Position numbers and translations under genes: made by a program
Shown here: one piece after another, positions 8,304-62,255 of the stretch
How positions within the stretch are numbered: position 1 is the stretch's first letter
Layout of the letters: each line of letters opens with the position of its first letter
The notes under the pieces: model-generated
Seen by the model: only the letters and a program-made list of their open reading frames with translations
What the model was told of the DNA's origin: nothing
Databases searched by the model: none
From: a virus
Direction: 5' to 3' (one strand)
Length of the DNA: 64,000 nt
Virus record (IMG/VR): IMGVR_UViG_3300042904_000405
Location: 1-64,000 of that record

Positions 8304-9140
8304 GTGACCACGACTCGATACCTGACGGCCGCCCAGTGGGGGATGACGTGGTCTCGCCCACCCCAGCCCGAGACCCAGTGGGATCCCGAGACCTACGTGC
8401 ACCATGTCGGCGGCGGAGCGTGGATGGACGGCAGCGCCGAGATGGTGTTCCGCAACCTGAACACGTACGCCCAGAAGACGAAGGGCTACTCGGCCCTCGA
8501 CTACGACGTGCTCGTCCACTACAACCGTCAGACCGACGTCCTCACGATCGCCGAGGGCCGCGGCAAGTACATGAGCGCCGCCACGAAAGACCGCAACGAA
8601 CAGGGCGAAGCCGTCTGCATCTGCGGCAACTACGACCTGCGCGAGCCGCTGGCGATCGAGGTTGAAGGCGTGGCGCTCGGTGTCGTCTACGGCATCAAGA
8701 ACGGCTGGATCCTGCCGACCGCCAAGATCCTCGGCCATCGCGACAACCCGGCCCACCCGAACGCCACCAGCTGCCCCGGCGCCAACATGTACTCCAAGCT
8801 CCCGGTCGTCCGCGCTCGGGTCATCACCCTACTCAACCCGCCCGCCGCACCGATCGGCCCCCTGCCCGTAGGAGACGACGTGAAGTTCTGTGTACACCAG
8901 CCCGTTGAGGGCGACCCGAACGCGCTGTTCATCTACGACCACACCAGCGCCGTCCAGATCGCCTGGCCGGGTCACGAGCTGAAGCTGATCGCCCAGCTGT
9001 GGGACCTCGAGGACCAGGGCGTCGCCTTCAACTCTCCCCGCGGCAAGCCAGGCCAGGCGGACCGGATGGTGCCGGTGCCGTTCACCCTCAACGAGTGGCA
9101 GCAGGGCACGTTCGAGAACGCCCGCAAGGCGAGCAGCTAG
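8304..9140 (+). CDS. Endolysin, N-acetylmuramoyl-L-alanine amidase
   Basis: Length 278 aa. The N-terminal ~165 residues form an amidase_2/PGRP-type zinc amidase. The first metal site is at YVHHVGGG (His33/His34), with the family tyrosine region at ALDYDVLVHYN (~64-74), and the second site is in ILGHRDNPAHPNATSCPG (His145 and Cys157). It should cut the amide bond between MurNAc and the stem peptide. The C-terminal ~100 residues are a separate domain with no recognised family; cell-wall binding is inferred. No signal peptide is seen, so release probably depends on neighbouring holin-like proteins. GTG start 7 nt after TAGCAT. Confidence 0.9.
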   Translation: MTTTRYLTAAQWGMTWSRPPQPETQWDPETYVHHVGGGAWMDGSAEMVFRNLNTYAQKTKGYSALDYDVLVHYNRQTDVLTIAEGRGKYMSAATKDRNEQGEAVCICGNYDLREPLAIEVEGVALGVVYGIKNGWILPTAKILGHRDNPAHPNATSCPGANMYSKLPVVRARVITLLNPPAAPIGPLPVGDDVKFCVHQPVEGDPNALFIYDHTSAVQIAWPGHELKLIAQLWDLEDQGVAFNSPRGKPGQADRMVPVPFTLNEWQQGTFENARKASS

Positions 9141-12525: not shown

Positions 12526-14658
12526 ATGGCCTTCCCAGTAGTCCAGGCCGTCACCGAGTCCGTCGTCGCCACTGCTGCGACCAGTCACCCCGTGACGCTG
12601 CCAGCCAGCATCGCGAGTAGCGACCTCGTTCTCATCCTCATGGACATCGGGTCGACGGCGGCGACCCTGAACGCACTCACCGACTGGTCCGAGGTGCTCG
12701 ACGAGAACGTCGCGAACGGCCTCAAGATCCTCCTCTACACCGGCGCCGGCGTCCCGTCGAACCCGACGTTCACATCCTCTGCGGCCACCCGCTCGGTGTC
12801 GCTCGCCTACCGGATCTCTGGTGCGGACAAGTCGATCACTCCACAGATCGGCACGACCGCCACAGGGACTTCCCTCACGCCGGATCCGCCGTCGGTGACG
12901 CCGACCGGTGGCATCACGAAGGACTACCTGTTCATCGCGTTCTTCGGGCAGGCGCTCGAAGAGGCGGACGATGACACGTGGGCGAACACACCGCCCACGA
13001 ACTACACGCCGTCACCGCCACGCCAGAAGACGGCGGGCACTGCGGGCACGAACCTCGGCGGGCTGATCGCGTCCGCCGAGCGGCAGCTGGCGACTGGCTC
13101 CGCTGAGAACCCTGGCACATTCGCCGTCGATGTGTCAGCGGCGTGGCGCGCCCAGACGATCATCGTCCACCCACAGGCGACCACGTCTGGCGCCTACGAG
13201 TTCGCCTTGGCGAACCCGGTCACCACGCCACCCAACGATGACGACCACACGGTCAGGGTGCGGGCATGGGCGTCCGCTGGCTCCGGTCTCCTCAAGGTTC
13301 GGCTCCTGCAGGGCGCGACCGAGATCGATGCTTGGACCGAGACGCTGACCGGGTCCGCGGCCAACTACAACCACGCGGTCGCTCCAGCGGCAGCGGCCAA
13401 CATCTCGAACTACAACGACCTTCGGCTCGAGCTGGTTGCCACAACGTTCACCAGCGCCACCGTTCGGGTGTCGCAGGTCTCCTTCTCAGTACCCGAGGGA
13501 GCGGCTGGCGGCGACCTCGTCGTCCAGGACGCGCTGCACGGCCACGCCGCTGACAATGCCGCGCTCACCCAGGTCCACACCCTCGCCGTCCAGGACGCGA
13601 CGCACGGGCATACGGCCGACAACGTTGTCCTCGTCCAGAACTCTTCGCTGGTCGTCGCCGACGCTCTGCATGGGCACACGGCCGACAACGTGGTCCTCAC
13701 TCAAGGTCATGTGCTCACCGTCGCCGAAGCGAGGAACACGCACACCGCCGACAACGTCGCCCTGACGCAGGTCCACTCACTGGTCGTTGCGGACGCCACG
13801 CACGGGCACACCGCCGACAACGTCGCTCTGACGCAGACCCACGTCCTGGCCGTCCAGGATGCGCTTCACGGTCACGCCGCCGACAACGTCGTGCTCGCCG
13901 CCGGCGGGGCCCTCGTCGTTCAGGAAGCGACGCACGGCCACACAGCGGACAACGTTGCGCTGACCCAGGTCCACGTCCTGTCGGTCCAGGATGCGGCTCA
14001 CGGCCACACCGCTGACAACGCGGCCATCACCAAGAACTCCTCACTCGTCGTCCAGGACGCGCTGCACGGCCACGCGGCCGACAACGTCGTACTCACCCAA
14101 GGCCACGTCCTCACCGTCTCCGAGACGCTTCACAGCCACACCGCCGACAGCGTCACTCTCACCCAGGTCCACGTTCTCTCCGTCGCCGACGCGCTCCACG
14201 GGCACGCCGCGGACAACGTCACCGTCACCACGGTCAATGCGCTCGTCGTGCAGGAGACGCTCCACGCCCACTCGGCTGACACCGTCACCGTCACGCAGCT
14301 GCACGTCCTCGTCGTCGACGACGCTCTCCACGGCCACACCGCCGACACGGTGCCGCGCGGCGACCTTGAGGCGATCATCACCTGCGCCATCGATGGCCCA
14401 GCGACGAAGGCGATCCTGCTCTCCGGCCCCGCCATCATGGTGGTCGCGCTGAAGGGCCCAGCCGTCGCACGTCGGATCACCGGGCCGGCGATTGAGGTAC
14501 TCTCCCTGAATGGCCCAGCAATCGAAGCTGTGTCCGTGCGGGGCCCAGCGGTGAGCCGGGTCGTGGACGGTCCCGACATCGAGGCTGCGCCCTCCGTCGA
14601 TGCGGGACCCGACACGTCCCGCGAGCTGATCGGGCCCGCGATGTGCCCAGGAGGATGA
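12526..14658 (+). CDS. Long fibre protein with 13 HGH repeats and GPA repeats
   Basis: Length 710 aa. Residues ~1-215 are a beta-rich module similar in plan to the preceding gene. Residues ~220-325 are the second half of a phage fibre domain (YEFALANPVTTPP onward). Residues ~331-609 hold 13 copies of a 22-residue repeat of form LxVxDALHGHxADNVxLTQxH. The end (~620-710) has about nine ~10-residue units starting GPA. The HxH motifs recall the iron-binding HxH sites in the T4 long fibre tip, so a metal-stabilised trimeric shaft is a reasonable inference. It probably makes a host-contact fibre. Confidence 0.65.
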   Translation: MAFPVVQAVTESVVATAATSHPVTLPASIASSDLVLILMDIGSTAATLNALTDWSEVLDENVANGLKILLYTGAGVPSNPTFTSSAATRSVSLAYRISGADKSITPQIGTTATGTSLTPDPPSVTPTGGITKDYLFIAFFGQALEEADDDTWANTPPTNYTPSPPRQKTAGTAGTNLGGLIASAERQLATGSAENPGTFAVDVSAAWRAQTIIVHPQATTSGAYEFALANPVTTPPNDDDHTVRVRAWASAGSGLLKVRLLQGATEIDAWTETLTGSAANYNHAVAPAAAANISNYNDLRLELVATTFTSATVRVSQVSFSVPEGAAGGDLVVQDALHGHAADNAALTQVHTLAVQDATHGHTADNVVLVQNSSLVVADALHGHTADNVVLTQGHVLTVAEARNTHTADNVALTQVHSLVVADATHGHTADNVALTQTHVLAVQDALHGHAADNVVLAAGGALVVQEATHGHTADNVALTQVHVLSVQDAAHGHTADNAAITKNSSLVVQDALHGHAADNVVLTQGHVLTVSETLHSHTADSVTLTQVHVLSVADALHGHAADNVTVTTVNALVVQETLHAHSADTVTVTQLHVLVVDDALHGHTADTVPRGDLEAIITCAIDGPATKAILLSGPAIMVVALKGPAVARRITGPAIEVLSLNGPAIEAVSVRGPAVSRVVDGPDIEAAPSVDAGPDTSRELIGPAMCPGG
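13516..14352 (+). repeat. 13 tandem 66-bp coding repeats (22 aa, HGH motif)
   Basis: The period is exactly 66 bp from 13516 to the start of the thirteenth copy at 14308. Core residues are DALHGHTADNV. The copies differ at many wobble positions, so the repeat is old or selected at protein level. Confidence 0.9.
14391..14656 (+). repeat. GPA-type ~30-bp degenerate coding repeats
   Basis: About nine units of 9-12 residues each beginning GPA or GPD (GPATKAILLS, GPAIMVVALK, GPAVARRIT and so on). They form the C-terminal part of the long fibre protein and suggest a repetitive beta structure. Confidence 0.7.
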
Positions 14659-15908: not shown

Positions 15909-16673
15909 CTAGAGCTTCCAGTACCGCTGGTGCAGCCGCGCCGTCAGGTGCGGGGTCTGCGGGAAGCTCGCCGTCGGCAGGCCCGAGCGGATCGCCCTGA
16001 ACCACCGGATCATCGTGTCGCCGGGCGAGTAGGCATCGATGGCTACCCGGGTGAAGGCGCCGTTGGCCCGATCCCCGAACCACGCGTCGTAGCTGTACTC
16101 GCGGTCCGAGCACCCGGAGATGAGCGTCGCCGGCACCCTCGACGCCTTCGGCTGCACCCAGCCGCGCGACATCGTGACGAGCGGGTCGCTGCCGATCAGC
16201 TCAATCGGCGACATGAACCGGGCGCGGATCGGTGGCAGGGATCCACCGAACCCCAGCCCAGCGACCCGAGACACCGAGCCCGAGTGGCAGCTGTCCGACA
16301 GGAACGTGCGCCGCACGCCAGTGGCGGCCGAGTCGAACGCTGTCGCCAGCTCGTCGTCGGTGATGTACCGACGGGTGTAGTCGGACGGGCACAGCACCTC
16401 GTCGAACCCGTCGATCTCGTCGCCGTTCCGATCCGGGACGAACGACCCGTGCCCCGAGTAGGTGAACACGAACCGGTCACCCCAGCGCATCCCGTCCAGG
16501 CCGTCGCGCAGGGCGGTGAGGATCGCATCCCCGCTCGGCTCGATTGAGATCGTCGGCTCGTAGCCCAGCTCGGCGAACATGGCCGCCCAGTCGTAGGCGT
16601 CATTGACGCAGCCGGCCAGCTCGGCCGACGTCCCCGGATAGTTCAGCCCGACGTGCAGTGAGCGCTTCAGCAT
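15909..16673 (-). CDS. Caspase-like cysteine peptidase (family C14, metacaspase type)
   Basis: Length 254 aa, with GAGGAGG upstream. It begins with the typical HVGLNYPGTSAELAGCVNDA strand-loop. The catalytic dyad is present: His75 in TYSGHG and Cys129 in LSDSCHSG. Acidic residues that bind the P1 Arg/Lys in metacaspases are plausible in DRNGDEIDGFDEVL and near SGCSDREYSYD (~200). The whole fold is there with no extra domains. Family knowledge predicts Arg/Lys-specific proteolysis in the cytoplasm. The start is 1 nt after the stop of a membrane protein gene, so the two are co-expressed. A phage-encoded active C14 enzyme is unusual. Confidence 0.88.
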   Translation of the reverse strand: MLKRSLHVGLNYPGTSAELAGCVNDAYDWAAMFAELGYEPTISIEPSGDAILTALRDGLDGMRWGDRFVFTYSGHGSFVPDRNGDEIDGFDEVLCPSDYTRRYITDDELATAFDSAATGVRRTFLSDSCHSGSVSRVAGLGFGGSLPPIRARFMSPIELIGSDPLVTMSRGWVQPKASRVPATLISGCSDREYSYDAWFGDRANGAFTRVAIDAYSPGDTMIRWFRAIRSGLPTASFPQTPHLTARLHQRYWKL

Positions 16674-16674
16674 C

Positions 16675-16905
16675 TCATTCCTCCTCGGCCTCCTCGGCCT
16701 GTTCCTCGATCATCTCTCGCTTCGCCCCCTGTGCCTCGTTCTTCGCCCCCTTCACGTTGGCCCACGCCGACATGAAGAAGATGACCGGGACACTGTTCGA
16801 CAGCGGGTCATGGACTACCCCGATGACCCCGATCAGCACCCAGAAGCGCGACTCCCAGGTCTGGGTGACCACCGTTGAGGCGGCACTGCGCCACCAGCGC
16901 CGCAA
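16675..16905 (-). CDS. Membrane protein with acidic coiled coil, partner of caspase gene
   Basis: Length up to 76 aa from TTG 16905; GTG 16872 would give 65 aa, and neither has a clear ribosome site. A hydrophobic stretch (~21-50, FWVLIGVIGVV ... SVPVIFFMSAW) is followed by a charged helix ending EEQAEEAEEE. It is probably an inner-membrane anchor. It lies 1 nt upstream of the caspase gene, so a functional link (membrane recruitment, regulation or substrate) is a reasonable guess. Confidence 0.55.
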   Translation of the reverse strand: MRRWWRSAASTVVTQTWESRFWVLIGVIGVVHDPLSNSVPVIFFMSAWANVKGAKNEAQGAKREMIEEQAEEAEEE

Positions 16906-17523: not shown

Positions 17524-17736
17524 TCATACGCGCTGGTGAAGCAGCTCGTTCAACAGGTGATGCCCGTTGAACCCGTCGAGTAGACGGAGCACCTGCTCGT
17601 CCGTCAGGTTCTTCCAGCTGGAGACGTCGCGCCGCAGGAAGAACTCAGCGAAGTCCATCCGCTCCTCCCGCGTCATCTTCAGCCCCTGGGCTTGAGCCAT
17701 CAGCGCGATGAACTGCGGGGAACGAGTGTTCGCCAT
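17524..17736 (-). CDS. Small helical protein, divergent to WhiB
   Basis: Length 70 aa from ATG 17736, which has GAGAGGAG upstream; an in-frame start at 17760 would lose that site. Helical throughout: MTREERMDFAEFFLRRDV, then DEQVLRLLDGFNGHHLL. This arrangement is seen in small actinophage and actinobacterial proteins of unknown role. It shares a 46-bp divergent control region with the whiB-like gene. Confidence 0.6.
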   Translation of the reverse strand: MANTRSPQFIALMAQAQGLKMTREERMDFAEFFLRRDVSSWKNLTDEQVLRLLDGFNGHHLLNELLHQRV

Positions 17737-17782
17737 ATCACACACTCCTCTCGAGATCAAGACCTACACTCGGCTCCCAGCC

Positions 17783-18193
17783 ATGGGTCGCCATCAGTCC
17801 TTCGCCAGCGGATCCGAGATCCCCAAGTCGATGCGCGCCGCCCGGGGGGCTGACGTCTCGTGGAAGGAGGAGGCCCGCTGCCGGTCCAACCACCGGCCCG
17901 AGGGGCTTCCGCACTTCGCCTGGACCGTCGACCCCAAGGACAAGGGCGCCCTTCTGCTCGGCCGCGAAGCCAAGGCGTGGATCGAGATGGCGCTGCTCAT
18001 CTGCCAGGCGTGTCCCGCCCAGTACGGCTGCGCCCGATTCGCCCTCAAGGTCGGCGAGGAGTGGGGCACCTGGGCGATGCACACCAACGATCTCAAGCAG
18101 CTCCATCGCCACCCCCGCAAGGATCTGATCATCGACGCTGCCGAAGACGCTGGCATCCCGGTGCAGGTCGCCGTCCGCCGGGCGCTGGGTTGA
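17783..18193 (+). CDS. WhiB-family Fe-S transcription factor
   Basis: Length 136 aa. Four cysteines in WhiB spacing: Cys33 (WKEEARC), then Cys74, Cys77 and Cys83 in ICQACPAQYGC, followed by GEEWGTWA at 91-98, equivalent to the family G(V/I)WGG turn. A basic C-terminal tail (HRHPRKDL, VAVRRALG) suits DNA or sigma-factor contact. Phage WhiB proteins are known to interfere with host WhiB function and superinfection. TACACT (17765-17770) is 12 nt before the ATG and may be its -10 element. Confidence 0.85.
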   Translation: MGRHQSFASGSEIPKSMRAARGADVSWKEEARCRSNHRPEGLPHFAWTVDPKDKGALLLGREAKAWIEMALLICQACPAQYGCARFALKVGEEWGTWAMHTNDLKQLHRHPRKDLIIDAAEDAGIPVQVAVRRALG

Positions 18194-55932: not shown

Positions 55933-56925
55933 GTGGCATCCATCGCGTACATCGGCAACTTCGGCCCGCCCCACTCCACGGAGAACGACGTCCTCCGCAC
56001 TCTGACGGACATGGGCCACGACGTGACGCGGTACCAGGAGAACGAGATCGGCGAGTGGGAGAGGCTTGTTGAGGCCCTGCGCGAAGAGGGCCCACTCCCC
56101 GACCTGATCCTCTGGACGTCGACGCACGACTACGCCGAGAAGGTCGGCCACGAGATCCAGCGGCACATGCAGTGGCTCGCCCGGATCCAGGGTGTGCCGA
56201 CGATGGGCTTCCACCTCGACCGCTGGTGGGGGCTGCAGCGCTGGAAGCGGGTGCTGTCCCAGCCGTTCTTCCGCTGCGACTACGTCCTCACCGCTGACGG
56301 CGGCCACCAGGCCGAGTTCGGGGCGGCGGACGTCAACCACCACTGGTCCCCGCCAGCCATCGCCCCGCACAACTGCGTCCGCGGCGAGTACCGGCCCGAG
56401 TTCGACTTCGACATCGTGTTCGTCGGCTCCTGGCAGGGCGGATACCACGAGGAGTGGCAGCACCGCCCCCAGCTGATTAAGCACCTGCAGCGCAAGTGGG
56501 GCGACCGCGTTGCGTTCTTCCCAGGGGCGCGCCAAGGCGCCATCCGCGGCCAGGGCCTCGCCGATCTCTACGCCTCGGCCAAGGTGGTGGTCGGTGACAG
56601 CTGCCTCGTCCCGAAGTCGGACGGCTCCCCGATGACGCACTACTGCAGCGACCGCGTCTTTGAGACGATCGGGCGCGGCGGCCTGCTACTCCATCCGTTC
56701 GTTCCTGGGGTCCTCGGCACGATGGACACCGACCTCGTTCAGGGCGGTGTCCATGCTCTCGGGTGGGATCTCGGCCACTGGGATCAGCTGGACTCTCTGA
56801 TCACGTACTACCTCGATGAGCCCACCGCAGCGGAGGACATCCGCCGCACCGGCTACCTCCACGTCTGGGCCAACCACACCTATGCCAACCGCTTGGACTG
56901 GGCTCTCGGACTGGTGGGGCTGTAA
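55933..56925 (+). CDS. GT-B glycosyltransferase (CgeB-like)
   Basis: Length 330 aa. Rossmann-type first half (SIAYIGNFGPPHSTENDVLR, GHDVTRYQENEI) and a second half with DIVFVGSWQGGYHEEWQHRP, GLADLYASAKVVVGDSC and VFETIGRGGLLLHPFVPG, the nucleotide-sugar site of GT4/CgeB-type enzymes. First gene of a seven-gene cassette. Acceptor is probably a virion protein or phage-specific glycan (inference). Confidence 0.75.
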   Translation: MASIAYIGNFGPPHSTENDVLRTLTDMGHDVTRYQENEIGEWERLVEALREEGPLPDLILWTSTHDYAEKVGHEIQRHMQWLARIQGVPTMGFHLDRWWGLQRWKRVLSQPFFRCDYVLTADGGHQAEFGAADVNHHWSPPAIAPHNCVRGEYRPEFDFDIVFVGSWQGGYHEEWQHRPQLIKHLQRKWGDRVAFFPGARQGAIRGQGLADLYASAKVVVGDSCLVPKSDGSPMTHYCSDRVFETIGRGGLLLHPFVPGVLGTMDTDLVQGGVHALGWDLGHWDQLDSLITYYLDEPTAAEDIRRTGYLHVWANHTYANRLDWALGLVGL

Positions 56926-57125
56926 TGGGCGCCACCTATGAGTTCGCCAGCTACGACGACCCCGAGACCGACCTTCACGTGTCGCGCGGCAAGCTCGACC
57001 CAGCAGGCACCACCCATCCACCGCAGTGGGGGAAGCCCTACCACCAGGACATGGGGTTCTGGGTGAAGGATTGCCTCCACCCGAACTGCGAACTGTTCAT
57101 CAAGGCAGAGAGGCCCCAGCCATGA
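56925..57125 (+). CDS. Small protein of glycosyl cassette
   Basis: Length 66 aa, TAATG-coupled. MGATYEFASYDDPETDLHVS, then HQDMGFWVKDCLHPNCELF (two Cys, two His). May be a small accessory or acceptor; no family seen. Confidence 0.55.
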   Translation: MGATYEFASYDDPETDLHVSRGKLDPAGTTHPPQWGKPYHQDMGFWVKDCLHPNCELFIKAERPQP

Positions 57126-57838
57126 GACGCGAGAACATCCTCGGCTTCGACATCGTCGTGCCGGACTCGGTAGCCGACTGGGATGCCGTGCGCGGCCCTG
57201 ACTCACCGTGGGAGCGCGAGCGCATCAAGTCGATGCTCAGCATCCTGCGCCGCGGCGACGTCCTCTACGACATCGGCGCCGAGCACGGGTGGATGTCGGT
57301 CATCTTCGGCTTGCACGTCGGCGGCGAGAACATGGTGCTCGTCGAGCCGTCGCAGGACTTCTGGCCGAACATCAAGATGGGCTGGGACGAGAACGGGCTC
57401 CACATGCCGCTCGCCACCGCCCAGGCCTTCGCAGGTGATGCCTCCGAAGGCGACATCTACGTCCGCTCGTGGACCCCGTTCATCGATGGCCCCGAGTGCC
57501 CGGCCATGGCGTACCGTCATCCGAACAACCACGCCGACTCGATCAAGACGGTGTCGATCGATCAGCTGTCCCTCGCCACGGGGAAGCCGCCGAAGGGCAT
57601 CACGATCGACGTCGAAGGCGCCGAGCTGGGCGTCCTGAAGGGCGCCGAGCGCACTCTCGTCGGCGATCGGCCCAACGTGTGGGTCTCAGTCCACGAGGAT
57701 CTGATGATCCGCGACTTCGGCACCACCCCCCAGGAGCTGGTCTCCTACATGGAGGGTCTCAACTTCAGGCTGTACAACCTCGGCTACGACCACGAGCAGC
57801 ACATGTACTTCCAGCCCGCGGAGTGGCGGCCGCGGTGA
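57122..57838 (+). CDS. FkbM-type methyltransferase
   Basis: Length 238 aa. AdoMet site DVLYDIGAEHGWMSVIFG (~46-63) and VLVEPSQDFW; the FkbM hallmark IDVEGAELGVLKGAE at ~160-174. Likely O-methylates a sugar added by the neighbouring transferases. Overlaps both neighbours by 4 bp. Confidence 0.78.
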   Translation: MRRENILGFDIVVPDSVADWDAVRGPDSPWERERIKSMLSILRRGDVLYDIGAEHGWMSVIFGLHVGGENMVLVEPSQDFWPNIKMGWDENGLHMPLATAQAFAGDASEGDIYVRSWTPFIDGPECPAMAYRHPNNHADSIKTVSIDQLSLATGKPPKGITIDVEGAELGVLKGAERTLVGDRPNVWVSVHEDLMIRDFGTTPQELVSYMEGLNFRLYNLGYDHEQHMYFQPAEWRPR

Positions 57839-58584
57839 GCCGGCGCAAGGTGAACCTGGCCGAGGCGCATTACTTCCCCGACCTGACGCCGATCCCGACG
57901 CGGCTGCATAAGATCTTCGACCTCGAGTTCCACGACGACATCGCGGTCGACGAGAACTGGACCGTGGGCGACTGCATCCAGAAGCTCGGCGTGTGGGAGC
58001 CGGTCGAGACGGCTGTCCTTTCCTCGGCGTTCGCGGGCAACCCGGAGTCCACCTTCGTCGACATCGGCTGCCACATCGGCTGGTACACGGTGATCGCCCG
58101 GCAGTGGGGCCTCGCCGTGGTTGCGATCGATGCCAACGAGCAGAACCTGAAGCTGCTGGAGAAGCGCCACGACCGGCACATCTACAGGTTCCACGAGTGG
58201 ATCGACAAGGGTTGGGACCCGGACATCATGTGGCCCGAGCCGTGCATCGTGAAGATGGACATCGAAGGCACCGAGCAGCACGCCGTCAACGCCATGTGGG
58301 ACCTGTTCAGCGTCGGCACCGTCACCCACGCCCTGATCGAGTGCAGCCCGGTCTTCAACGACAGCTATCCGAAGCTGCTCGAGCGGCTTATCGGCGTCGG
58401 CTACGAATGCTGGATCCTTCCGCCGAAGCGCGAGGATCCAGCACCGATGGACGACACCAGGCTGTGGCTGGAGACTGAGTGCCTGCCCCTCCAGGCGCTG
58501 GGGCCGGTCACGCGCTCGGACTGGGTCAAGGACCAGCACCAGTTCAACGCCGTCATCTGCAAGGAGGACTCCAAGTGGGGGTGA
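57835..58584 (+). CDS. FkbM-type methyltransferase, second copy
   Basis: Length 249 aa, GTG start. STFVDIGCHIGWYTVIARQW (AdoMet loop), VVAIDANEQNLKLLEK and KMDIEGTEQHAVNAMW, the FkbM family motifs. Different enough from the preceding gene to suggest another sugar position. Coupled by GTGA to both neighbours. Confidence 0.78.
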   Translation: MSRRKVNLAEAHYFPDLTPIPTRLHKIFDLEFHDDIAVDENWTVGDCIQKLGVWEPVETAVLSSAFAGNPESTFVDIGCHIGWYTVIARQWGLAVVAIDANEQNLKLLEKRHDRHIYRFHEWIDKGWDPDIMWPEPCIVKMDIEGTEQHAVNAMWDLFSVGTVTHALIECSPVFNDSYPKLLERLIGVGYECWILPPKREDPAPMDDTRLWLETECLPLQALGPVTRSDWVKDQHQFNAVICKEDSKWG

Positions 58585-60260
58585 CGGTGCCCGTCATCTG
58601 GCTCGCCAAGGAGGGCGTGTGCTCGCGCTGCCGTTGGGACGAATGGATCGTGGAGGATCTCCTCAACGGCGCGCAGAAGCGACCGGCGACGCTCATGTCG
58701 GCTGCGCACGGAACAACGTCGAGCATCGGCCGCGCGGGCAGCCTCCACCCCTGGGTGGTGGTCCTCCCCGGCGGCAACCATGTCGACGACGTCGACTGGG
58801 TGAACAAGCAGCTGAGTGGTATCGCAGAGCTGATCCTCTTCATCACCTCCGACGAGGGTGCTGCCTTCCCGGTGGAGAAGCTCAACCACCCCAACATGAG
58901 GCTGTGGATCCAGACGCCGCGACCCGAGGCGAGCTACCCGGTCGGTACTCAGTTCTTCGGGGTGGGCTCCGCTCGCGCATGGGAGTACGCCATTCCGCAG
59001 CCCAAGGAACACCGCGCGATGCTCGCCGGCCAGCGCACGCACCAGCGGCGCGACGACGCCTTCGCCAACACCGTGCGAGTGCCGAACTCCTTCGTCCGGG
59101 AGTCGAGGGGTTTCCTCACTGGCCTTGATCGTCCCGAGTACCTCGATGCCCTCGCTCGGTCGTGGTGGGCCCCCGCTCCGTCGGGGGCCATCACGCAGGA
59201 CTCGTTCAGGTTCTACGAAGCCCTCGAGCTGGGTACGATCCCGATCCCTGATGGCCTGCGCGCCGACGGGGCTGGGCAGGGGTACTGGGACATGGTGGCC
59301 CCGGGCTTCCCGATCGCGCCGATCACCGACTGGCGAAGGTTGCCTTCTCTCTTGGACTCCGCAGAGCAGCTCCTCACTGCAGCCGAGATTGAGCTGATGA
59401 CTCACGGCTGGTGGCACACCCGCCGCAGGGAGATGGCTCGCACGCTCGCCTCGCAGGTGGGGAACGACGCCCCGCACCCGCTGACGGTGATCGTTCCCAC
59501 GTCGCCGATCAAGTCGCATCCGAGCACGAAGATCATCGAAGAGACGGTGCGTTCGATCCGGGAGCGAACCGACGCGGAGATCCTCATCACCTGCGACATG
59601 CCTCGCAGCGAGCTGTCCCACTACAAGGAGCGCTACACCGACTACCTGCGCGACCTGATGTTGCTCGCCGAGCACGAGTGGTGGAACGTCACGCCGATCG
59701 TGATGAACAAGTTCTGCCACCAAGTTGAGATGCTGCGCCGCACGCTGCCGCACATCGACTCCAAGTACCTCATGTACGTTGAGCACGACACGCCGCTCGT
59801 CGGCGACATCGACTTCGACCAGGTGATCGCGGCGATGAAGGCGAGCGACCTGAACGTCATCCGCTTCTACCACGAGGCGGCCGTGCACCCCGAGCACGAG
59901 CACCTGATGACCGGCGCCGTCCACTCCAACGGCTGGCGCCCGACGATGCAGTGGTCCCAGCGCCCTCACGTGGCGAAGGTGTCGTTCTACGAGAAGTTCA
60001 TCCTGCGGCACTTTGAGACCACGGCGCGTTGCATGATCGAGGACGCCATGTTCGGCATCGTCGAAGGCGCCTGGCTCTCCCAGGGCGCTGACGCATGGGA
60101 GAGCTGGCGCATGGGCCTGTGGCATCCCGCAGGGGACAGCATCCAGCGCTCCACTCACCTCGACGGCCGCGGGCCGGATTCGAAGTACGAGGAACAGTTC
60201 AAGTACCGCTACAGGGGTGACCGCCCACCGGGCGCGCCGGCAGGAGCAAACCAGACATGA
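58581..60260 (+). CDS. Two-domain glycosyltransferase (exostosin-like plus GT-A)
   Basis: Length 559 aa, GTG start. The N-terminal ~300 residues resemble exostosin/GT47: ITQDSFRFYEALELGTIPIP is the donor-binding signature. The C-terminal ~230 residues resemble a GT2-type GT-A domain (PLTVIVPTSPIKSHPSTKII, YLMYVEHDTPLVGD with a DxD-like acidic pair). A bifunctional enzyme that adds two sugars is a fair inference. Confidence 0.7.
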   Translation: MTVPVIWLAKEGVCSRCRWDEWIVEDLLNGAQKRPATLMSAAHGTTSSIGRAGSLHPWVVVLPGGNHVDDVDWVNKQLSGIAELILFITSDEGAAFPVEKLNHPNMRLWIQTPRPEASYPVGTQFFGVGSARAWEYAIPQPKEHRAMLAGQRTHQRRDDAFANTVRVPNSFVRESRGFLTGLDRPEYLDALARSWWAPAPSGAITQDSFRFYEALELGTIPIPDGLRADGAGQGYWDMVAPGFPIAPITDWRRLPSLLDSAEQLLTAAEIELMTHGWWHTRRREMARTLASQVGNDAPHPLTVIVPTSPIKSHPSTKIIEETVRSIRERTDAEILITCDMPRSELSHYKERYTDYLRDLMLLAEHEWWNVTPIVMNKFCHQVEMLRRTLPHIDSKYLMYVEHDTPLVGDIDFDQVIAAMKASDLNVIRFYHEAAVHPEHEHLMTGAVHSNGWRPTMQWSQRPHVAKVSFYEKFILRHFETTARCMIEDAMFGIVEGAWLSQGADAWESWRMGLWHPAGDSIQRSTHLDGRGPDSKYEEQFKYRYRGDRPPGAPAGANQT

Positions 60261-61291
60261 GGGCCGGGATCATCATCCGCTCAACGGCGCGCGGCTTGGC
60301 CACGCAGACCCAGGAGGCGTGGCGGGGCTTCCCGTTTGAGGCCGCCCTGCACATCGTCGACGGCGACCCCGTGTGGCCGGAAGACCTGTGGGAGCCACAC
60401 CGACCGGATGACATCTACCGGGCACACCTCAAGGACGGCGAGCTGCTCCGCTACGAGTACGAGGAGTTCCTCTCCCGGATCGACGTGCTGTTCTCAGTGG
60501 AGACGCTGTACAGCTGGCATTTCGCCCGCGCCGTGGAGAACGCCAACGTCCGGGCCGTCGTCCAGGGCAACTGCGAGCTGTGGGGCCCGTTCCAGCCCGC
60601 CCTCCCGATGACCCAGTGGGTGTGGCCGACTCCCTGGCGTCTCGACGGCGTGCCGGAAGGGCCGACCATCCCGGTGCCGGTGGCGGACGCCTGTCGCGCC
60701 AAGGCGGCCGACATCGATGCCCCCCTCGTCATCGTCCACCCGGCCGGCCACGCTGCCATCGGTGACCGCAACGGGACCGAGCTGCTCCTGCGGGCGGCGT
60801 CGATCCTCAAGACGGAAGTGACCCTGCGCATCATCGGACAGGACGGCAGGGGGTCGATCAACAAGGGCTTCCATCTGCGTGTCCCACCCAACGTGAAGGT
60901 TGAGGTCATCGAGACCGGCGTGAAGGATCGCTGGTCGCTCTACGACGGCGCTCACGCCGTCATCCTCCCGCGTCGCTACGGCGGCCTGAGCTTGCCCGCC
61001 CAGGAGGCGTTGCAGGCCGGCGTCATTCCGATCATGACGGACTGCGAGCCGAACCGCTTCTGGCCGATCATCCCGATCCCCGCCGCCAAGGGCAGGGGCC
61101 AGCGGGTGCGCTACGGCCACATTGAGACATGGGTTGCCGATCCCCGGATGATCGCCCGCCGGATCGATGAACTGAACTACGACCGGCAGACATTGGTGAC
61201 ACAGAGGGAAGCTGCCCGCACGTGGGTCCAGGAGCACACATGGGAGAAGATGGCCCCGATGTACGACGAACTCTTCCTCTCGCAGCTCTGA
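60257..61291 (+). CDS. GT-B glycosyltransferase (GT4-like)
   Basis: Length 344 aa. N-terminal half with VLFSVETLYSWHFARAVENA; C-terminal half with PLVIVHPAGHAAIGDRNGTE, ILKTEVTLRIIGQDGRG and YDGAHAVILPRRYGGLSLPA followed by QEALQAGVIPIM, the classic GT4 nucleotide-sugar motif (ExGGxSLPxxEA). Complete. Confidence 0.78.
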   Translation: MRAGIIIRSTARGLATQTQEAWRGFPFEAALHIVDGDPVWPEDLWEPHRPDDIYRAHLKDGELLRYEYEEFLSRIDVLFSVETLYSWHFARAVENANVRAVVQGNCELWGPFQPALPMTQWVWPTPWRLDGVPEGPTIPVPVADACRAKAADIDAPLVIVHPAGHAAIGDRNGTELLLRAASILKTEVTLRIIGQDGRGSINKGFHLRVPPNVKVEVIETGVKDRWSLYDGAHAVILPRRYGGLSLPAQEALQAGVIPIMTDCEPNRFWPIIPIPAAKGRGQRVRYGHIETWVADPRMIARRIDELNYDRQTLVTQREAARTWVQEHTWEKMAPMYDELFLSQL

Positions 61292-61301
61292 GCCGTCTCA
61301 C

Positions 61302-62255
61302 ATGCGTATACACGCCCTTGCGACCACCCCCCAGTACCGCCGCCACGTCGAAGCGGTCTGGAAGCATCTCGACCCCTCGCTGAAGGGTGACCTGCTCGTC
61401 GGCCGCACCGCCTCAACGAAGCGCTACCCCACCCAGGACGTCGTCATGGTCGGCGGCTACTACGACGTCGCCAACGCTCCGCACCAGCGGATCATCTACG
61501 TGGAGCACGGAGCCGGCCAGGCGTACGGCGGTGACGAGACCTCCCGTGGGCACCTCTGCTACCACGGGTCCAACCACCCAAAGCGCGTCGTCGGCTACAT
61601 CTCGCCGTCCGAGCAGGTCGCCCGCCTCTGGAACCGCCCGGCGTTCGCCGCTGGTGTGCCCGCCCTCGACGACATCCCACGCCGGCCGATCCGCTTCGCC
61701 AGGCACAAGGTCGCGGCGATCACCTTCCACTTTGACGCTCGAGGAGCGTTCGTCGCCCCGGAGGCTCGCTCCGCCAGGGAGCACTACATCGAGATGCTGC
61801 ACAGCATGGTCGGCGCCCTGCGCGCCGACGGATGGGAGGTGATCGGTACCTGGCACCCGAAGGACCCCGTCGGGCACAAGATCTGGCGCAACCTGCAGAT
61901 CGAGTCGACTGCGGACCCGGCCGAGATCCTGAGCCGCGCTCACCTCGTCATCGCCGACAACACGTCCCTGCTCTACGAGGCGGCCTATCTCGGCATCCCG
62001 TCGATCGTCCTGAACGCCCCGTGGTATCGCAAGGACGTGGAGCATGGACTGCGCTTCTGGGATCACGTCCCCGGCCACCAGGTCGACAGCCCGGAGGAGT
62101 TCATCGCCTTCGACTTCACCTACTGGCTCAACGGGATGAAGAGCAACATCTTGGCCTCGTCCGCCGCCCTCTACGCCTACGGCCCCGACCGCCACGGCCA
62201 CGCCGGCGCGCAGGCTGCCCGCTGGGTGGAGAAGTTCGTGATGGGCGAGGTCTAG
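61302..62255 (+). CDS. GT-B transferase, CDP-glycerol glycerophosphotransferase-like
   Basis: Length 317 aa. GT-B type with MRIHALATTPQYRRHVEAVW, RIIYVEHGAGQAYGGDET (like the HG motif of TagB/TagF enzymes), VIGTWHPKDPVGHKI and LVIADNTSLLYEAAYLGIPS. It probably transfers glycerol phosphate or a sugar. Last gene of the cassette; its stop codon TAG is the first half of the next -10 element. Confidence 0.68.
   Translation: MRIHALATTPQYRRHVEAVWKHLDPSLKGDLLVGRTASTKRYPTQDVVMVGGYYDVANAPHQRIIYVEHGAGQAYGGDETSRGHLCYHGSNHPKRVVGYISPSEQVARLWNRPAFAAGVPALDDIPRRPIRFARHKVAAITFHFDARGAFVAPEARSAREHYIEMLHSMVGALRADGWEVIGTWHPKDPVGHKIWRNLQIESTADPAEILSRAHLVIADNTSLLYEAAYLGIPSIVLNAPWYRKDVEHGLRFWDHVPGHQVDSPEEFIAFDFTYWLNGMKSNILASSAALYAYGPDRHGHAGAQAARWVEKFVMGEV

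Follow-up and report, generated by a model that had tools for sequence, protein, structure and literature searches.

What caspase-type proteases do in prokaryotes is a long-standing question, and the locus described here raises it in the form of a caspase homologue carried by a phage. The window, a stretch of 64,000 nucleotides (positions 1 to 64,000 of the IMG/VR virus record IMGVR_UViG_3300042904_000405), comes from a 72,403-bp record with a terminase and an endolysin, which supports the phage origin that had been proposed from the letters alone. This sequence-only reading had also described a complete C14 domain with both catalytic residues beside a membrane partner, for which superinfection exclusion, timed lysis or control of host proteolysis was suggested.

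The C14 domain was confirmed. The gene (15909..16673, minus strand, ATG start) encodes a 254-aa protein, of which residues 8-247 match Pfam Peptidase_C14 (PF00656) with E=5.6e-23 and a score of 82.3 bits (cut-off 21.4). The catalytic residues His75 (YSGHG, codon 16449..16451, minus strand) and Cys129 (DSCHSG, codon 16287..16289, minus strand) were invariant in an alignment of 39 phage rows and likewise in one of 43 phage and bacterial rows. The p20 domain with this dyad, which defines an orthocaspase (Peptidase C14B), is followed in the same chain by a p10 part, with AlphaFold2 strands at 183-186, 195-199 and 202-205. A metacaspase fold was predicted confidently by AlphaFold2 from the 43-row alignment (pLDDT 90.4, pTM 0.89), and a Foldseek search with the predicted fold returned the bacterial orthocaspase GSU0716 (TM 0.74) and metacaspases. 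A profile match of the window protein covered the whole length of GSU0716, and the nearest solved structures by sequence were AtMC4 and GSU0716, followed by Yca1 and TbMCA2. In the viral structure library BFVD at E<=0.001, the matches were from giant viruses and an ascovirus, and no bacteriophage protein with a matching fold was found there.

In TbMCA2, the S1 residues are Cys92, Asp95, Ser156 and Asp211 (PMC4357240), and their counterparts in the window protein are Cys22, Asp25, Ser73 and Asp127. By this correspondence, an acidic S1 pocket, predicted to accept Arg or Lys, is present. The position of the fourth Ca2+ ligand (TbMCA2 Asp220) is held by Arg136, where Arg or Lys was found in 42 of the 43 rows, and calcium control may therefore differ; Asp106/Asp107 and nearby acids are retained in the window protein, which does not have the four-Asp, TbMCA2-like site. 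The four-Asp Ca2+ site is typical of orthocaspases of the C14B type and is not obligatory in every member. The p20-p10 linker is variable except for the motif [RK]-F-[LMI]-x-P, with the basic residue (Arg152, codon 16218..16220, minus strand) kept as Arg or Lys in 42/43 rows and a looser form of the motif present in 66/89 proteins of a wider relative set. The conservation of Arg152 would fit self-cleavage by an Arg/Lys protease, making it a candidate autocleavage or pseudosubstrate site.

Judged from its sequence, the window gene is a standalone orthocaspase, a cysteine protease of the C14B type in which the His/Cys dyad is intact, and its product is very probably a working enzyme. The pseudo-enzyme reading was rejected at this level because the dyad is intact and invariant. 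The earlier impression of an intact C14 peptidase in a phage was supported by the predicted fold and S1 pocket, as well as by the selection seen on its relatives. The protein belongs to a known protease family, as a phage variant whose genomic setting is unexpected, and is not a new kind of enzyme.

Relatives were collected by scanning viral contigs, which gave 7, 53, 77 and 47 matches in overlapping sets, and some of the large caspase-bearing contigs may come from giant viruses that infect eukaryotes. There were also 26 bacterial or archaeal relatives, in addition to plasmid relatives. When 50,697 phage records were searched with four different caspase queries, the sole match was LR745208, a 485-kb uncultured huge phage, and no caspase from a cultured phage was found among these records. 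PHROGs contains no family named caspase, and two of its families without function matched some of the phage caspases weakly. In the phylogeny with bacterial orthocaspases, which the sequence-only reading had proposed as a check, the phage caspases did not form one clade, and the carrier changed between phage and bacterium at least four or five times. As read from this tree, orthocaspases have been repeatedly acquired by phages and exchanged with bacteria. The nearest row to the window caspase was that of the viral locus L017 (88/62), in a weakly supported grouping. In two further loci, L039 and L041, a C-terminal transmembrane helix is predicted in the caspase itself, and some members may therefore be attached to the membrane in cis.

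The genes around the relatives were counted in 98 loci, consisting of the merged scan matches, the window and LR745208, a few of which are partial or have no recognisable dyad. Within two genes of the caspase, a peptidoglycan hydrolase was found in 19 loci, and a hydrolase, holin-family or DUF5675 gene in 30. Peptidoglycan hydrolases made up 19/375 genes at ranks 1-2 compared to 2/786 at ranks 5-12 (p=4e-8), with the search models for these hydrolase counts seeded from near genes and thus biased towards near matches; unselected Pfam and PHROGs scans of the neighbours agreed in direction. Among the best 25 families in the pooled Pfam/PHROGs counts, the distal genes contained one Peptidase_M23. 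The enrichment concerns endolysins and holins and fades within three genes of the caspase. Small transmembrane proteins were also more frequent at rank 1 (22/80) than at ranks 5-10 (40/338, p=7e-4). An endolysin was the immediate neighbour in 7 of the first 42 loci (L012, L017, L023, L024, L027, L041 and L048), and several of the adjacent endolysin genes overlap the caspase by 1-8 nt, including the one in L017 (4 nt). In a second set of loci, the caspase is flanked by amidases, GH25, lysozyme, M15 peptidases, DUF5675 and holin-like proteins. The bacterial relatives had no lysis-gene neighbours and were in ordinary chromosomal contexts.

About two thirds of the 98 loci had no recognised lysis neighbour, and replication, sugar-gene or other non-lysis contexts were seen in L016, L026, L137, L145 and L158. 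The last three, all viral contigs, share a recurring arrangement, in which the caspase has the same order of non-lysis neighbours, among them an MscS-like membrane protein. Elsewhere, a patatin-like phospholipase (PF01734, 9.4e-22 in L015, 6923-7990) is located one or two genes upstream of the caspase in L015 and L037, and is followed by a small spanin-like lipoprotein.

In the window phage itself, the caspase is not beside an endolysin or holin gene, as it is in many relatives. The phage's own endolysin (amidase-like; 8304..9140, plus strand; phrog_1493, E=2.5e-4) is 6.8 kb away on the opposite strand, and the caspase unit lies between tail genes and the terminase. Its strand is opposite to that of the late genes and the same as that of the region at 20.8-38 kb, whose small genes are probably early. 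A promoter and terminator scan around the caspase operon gave no match, no integrase (PF00589) was found in the virus record, and no close relatives of the phage were found via its terminase. A WhiB-like regulator (17708-18193, plus strand; PF02467, 1.6e-6) suggests an actinobacterial host. Two other regions were noted, both on the plus strand: 12526-14658 encodes a 710-aa protein, probably a tail fibre or adhesin, in which a unit of ~20 residues (DALHGHTADNVVLTQ type) is imperfectly repeated about thirteen times, and 55933-62255, in the structural region, holds a run of genes that by eye appear to be sugar-related and glycosyltransferase genes.

The ORF upstream of the caspase (16675..16905, minus strand) stops one nucleotide short of the caspase ATG, and the two genes probably form an operon, with this ORF as the first. 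It encodes a small hydrophobic protein of 76 aa from a TTG start, or 65 aa from an alternative GTG at 16872, with an acidic C-terminal tail. Its last codons (GAG GAG GAA) overlap the Shine-Dalgarno sequence of the caspase (GAGGAGG, 16680..16686, minus strand), and as the tail codons carry this ribosome-binding site, part of the tail acidity may reflect the overlap. The spacing of the membrane partner described earlier was recovered, and its acidic tail was confirmed; however, the protein has little membrane character (the best 19-residue stretch has a Kyte-Doolittle mean of 1.38), and a conserved membrane partner was rejected, as tblastn found no homologue in the viral contigs and phages and the protein has no similarity to the membrane protein of L017. 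There was also no match to it in Pfam, PHROGs or PADLOC.

The best-supported function of the phage orthocaspase, which we put forward tentatively and at a little less than an even chance, is a late role, at lysis or in host takedown. The initial product would be a zymogen, cut by its own activity behind a basic residue of the p20-p10 linker, Arg152 being the candidate. Once activated, the protease would cut host or phage proteins at Arg/Lys sites during late infection, and this could promote or time lysis. Possible targets are the holin or antiholin, the endolysin, and host envelope and nucleoid proteins, and the small upstream hydrophobic protein could be a membrane tether of the caspase or its substrate. 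Of the roles suggested at the outset, lysis gains independent support because relatives recur in the lysis cassettes of unrelated phages, while the window caspase itself is outside such a cassette; for this phage, the link to lysis would follow from homology and not from position.

Given the 6.8 kb between the caspase unit and the endolysin and the minus-strand position of the unit, a serious rival for the window phage is a moron of two genes that would act in superinfection exclusion or anti-defence. The small protein would serve as sensor or anchor, and the protease would cut proteins of an incoming phage or of host defence. We consider this rather unlikely. The isolated two-gene unit, co-oriented with the probably early genes and opposite to the late ones, and the unrelated small protein adjoining the caspase would suit it, as would the weak match to 'caspase' in PADLOC (0.0012) and the precedent of bacterial caspase-like proteases that act against phages, such as Craspase (TPR-CHAT) and the gasdermin-caspase systems (PMC12805718). 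However, the relatives recur with lysis genes and not with defence genes, the small partner is not conserved among them, and no gasdermin or other effector was seen. A defence effector with gasdermin was rejected since no such gene adjoins the protease, the adjacent ORF having no Pfam or PADLOC match.

Similarly improbable, in our view, is a general late protease that would serve host takedown by recycling host proteins, or phage protein processing such as the maturation of structural proteins, without control of lysis. The late-gene position alone would then explain the neighbours, and indeed most relatives are co-oriented with the genes upstream (83/89, the orientation being opposite in only 6/89) and downstream (82/90), and several adjoin structural or replication genes. 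Against this reading, the enrichment centres on endolysins and holins and declines within three genes of the caspase. The repeated exchange between phages and bacteria could also point to a recently captured host gene without function in the phage. This is very improbable, as the window caspase is deeply divergent (48% to its closest relative), its GC content is like that of its surroundings, the gene arrangement is compact and overlapping, and the relatives are under strong purifying selection, with dN/dS of 0.05-0.15 in five informative pairs of phage relatives (several other pairs, identical or truncated, gave no value).

Within the late role, a more specific proposal is that in a previously undescribed set of uncultured phages, lysis has a caspase-type protease among its regulated components, with a holin, antiholin or endolysin as the substrate. 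We regard this as unlikely at present, and if true, the bursting of the cell by the phage would be triggered by a caspase, much as in lytic cell death in eukaryotes. Phage lysis might then include a protease step, one that the cultured phages among those searched lack, and the phage orthocaspases that overlap lysis genes turn the question of what prokaryotic caspases are for into a narrow, testable hypothesis. What is new here is the genomic context, with orthocaspase relatives recurring beside lysis genes; the open-access literature, which excludes most subscription journals, yielded no account of a caspase in a phage lysis cassette.

An earlier hint of metacaspases in phage-related regions comes from a 2012 survey (Asplund-Samuelsson, PMC3501461), which describes phage-related metacaspase operons in Clostridium botulinum in a passage that makes no link to lysis. 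Compared to the gasdermin-caspase and Craspase systems, the protein described here is carried by a phage and no gasdermin, gRAMP or CHAT partner was seen. The metacaspases of giant viruses (Fadolivirus, medusavirus and Clandestinovirus) are viral caspase homologues that match its predicted fold; however, their carriers infect eukaryotes. With the eukaryotic metacaspases (AtMC4, AtMC9, Yca1 and TbMCA2) it shares the p20 and p10 core and the S1 residues, whereas it has a short linker and Arg136 in place of Asp220 of TbMCA2. It also resembles bacterial orthocaspases, the prokaryotic metacaspases such as GSU0716 (PDB 3bij) and MaOC1, which have the same fold, His/Cys dyad and S1 pocket, with bacterial relatives up to 46% identical. 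Those bacterial proteins are found in ordinary chromosomal contexts, whereas the phage protein is phage-encoded, standalone and of a kind that recurs by lysis genes.
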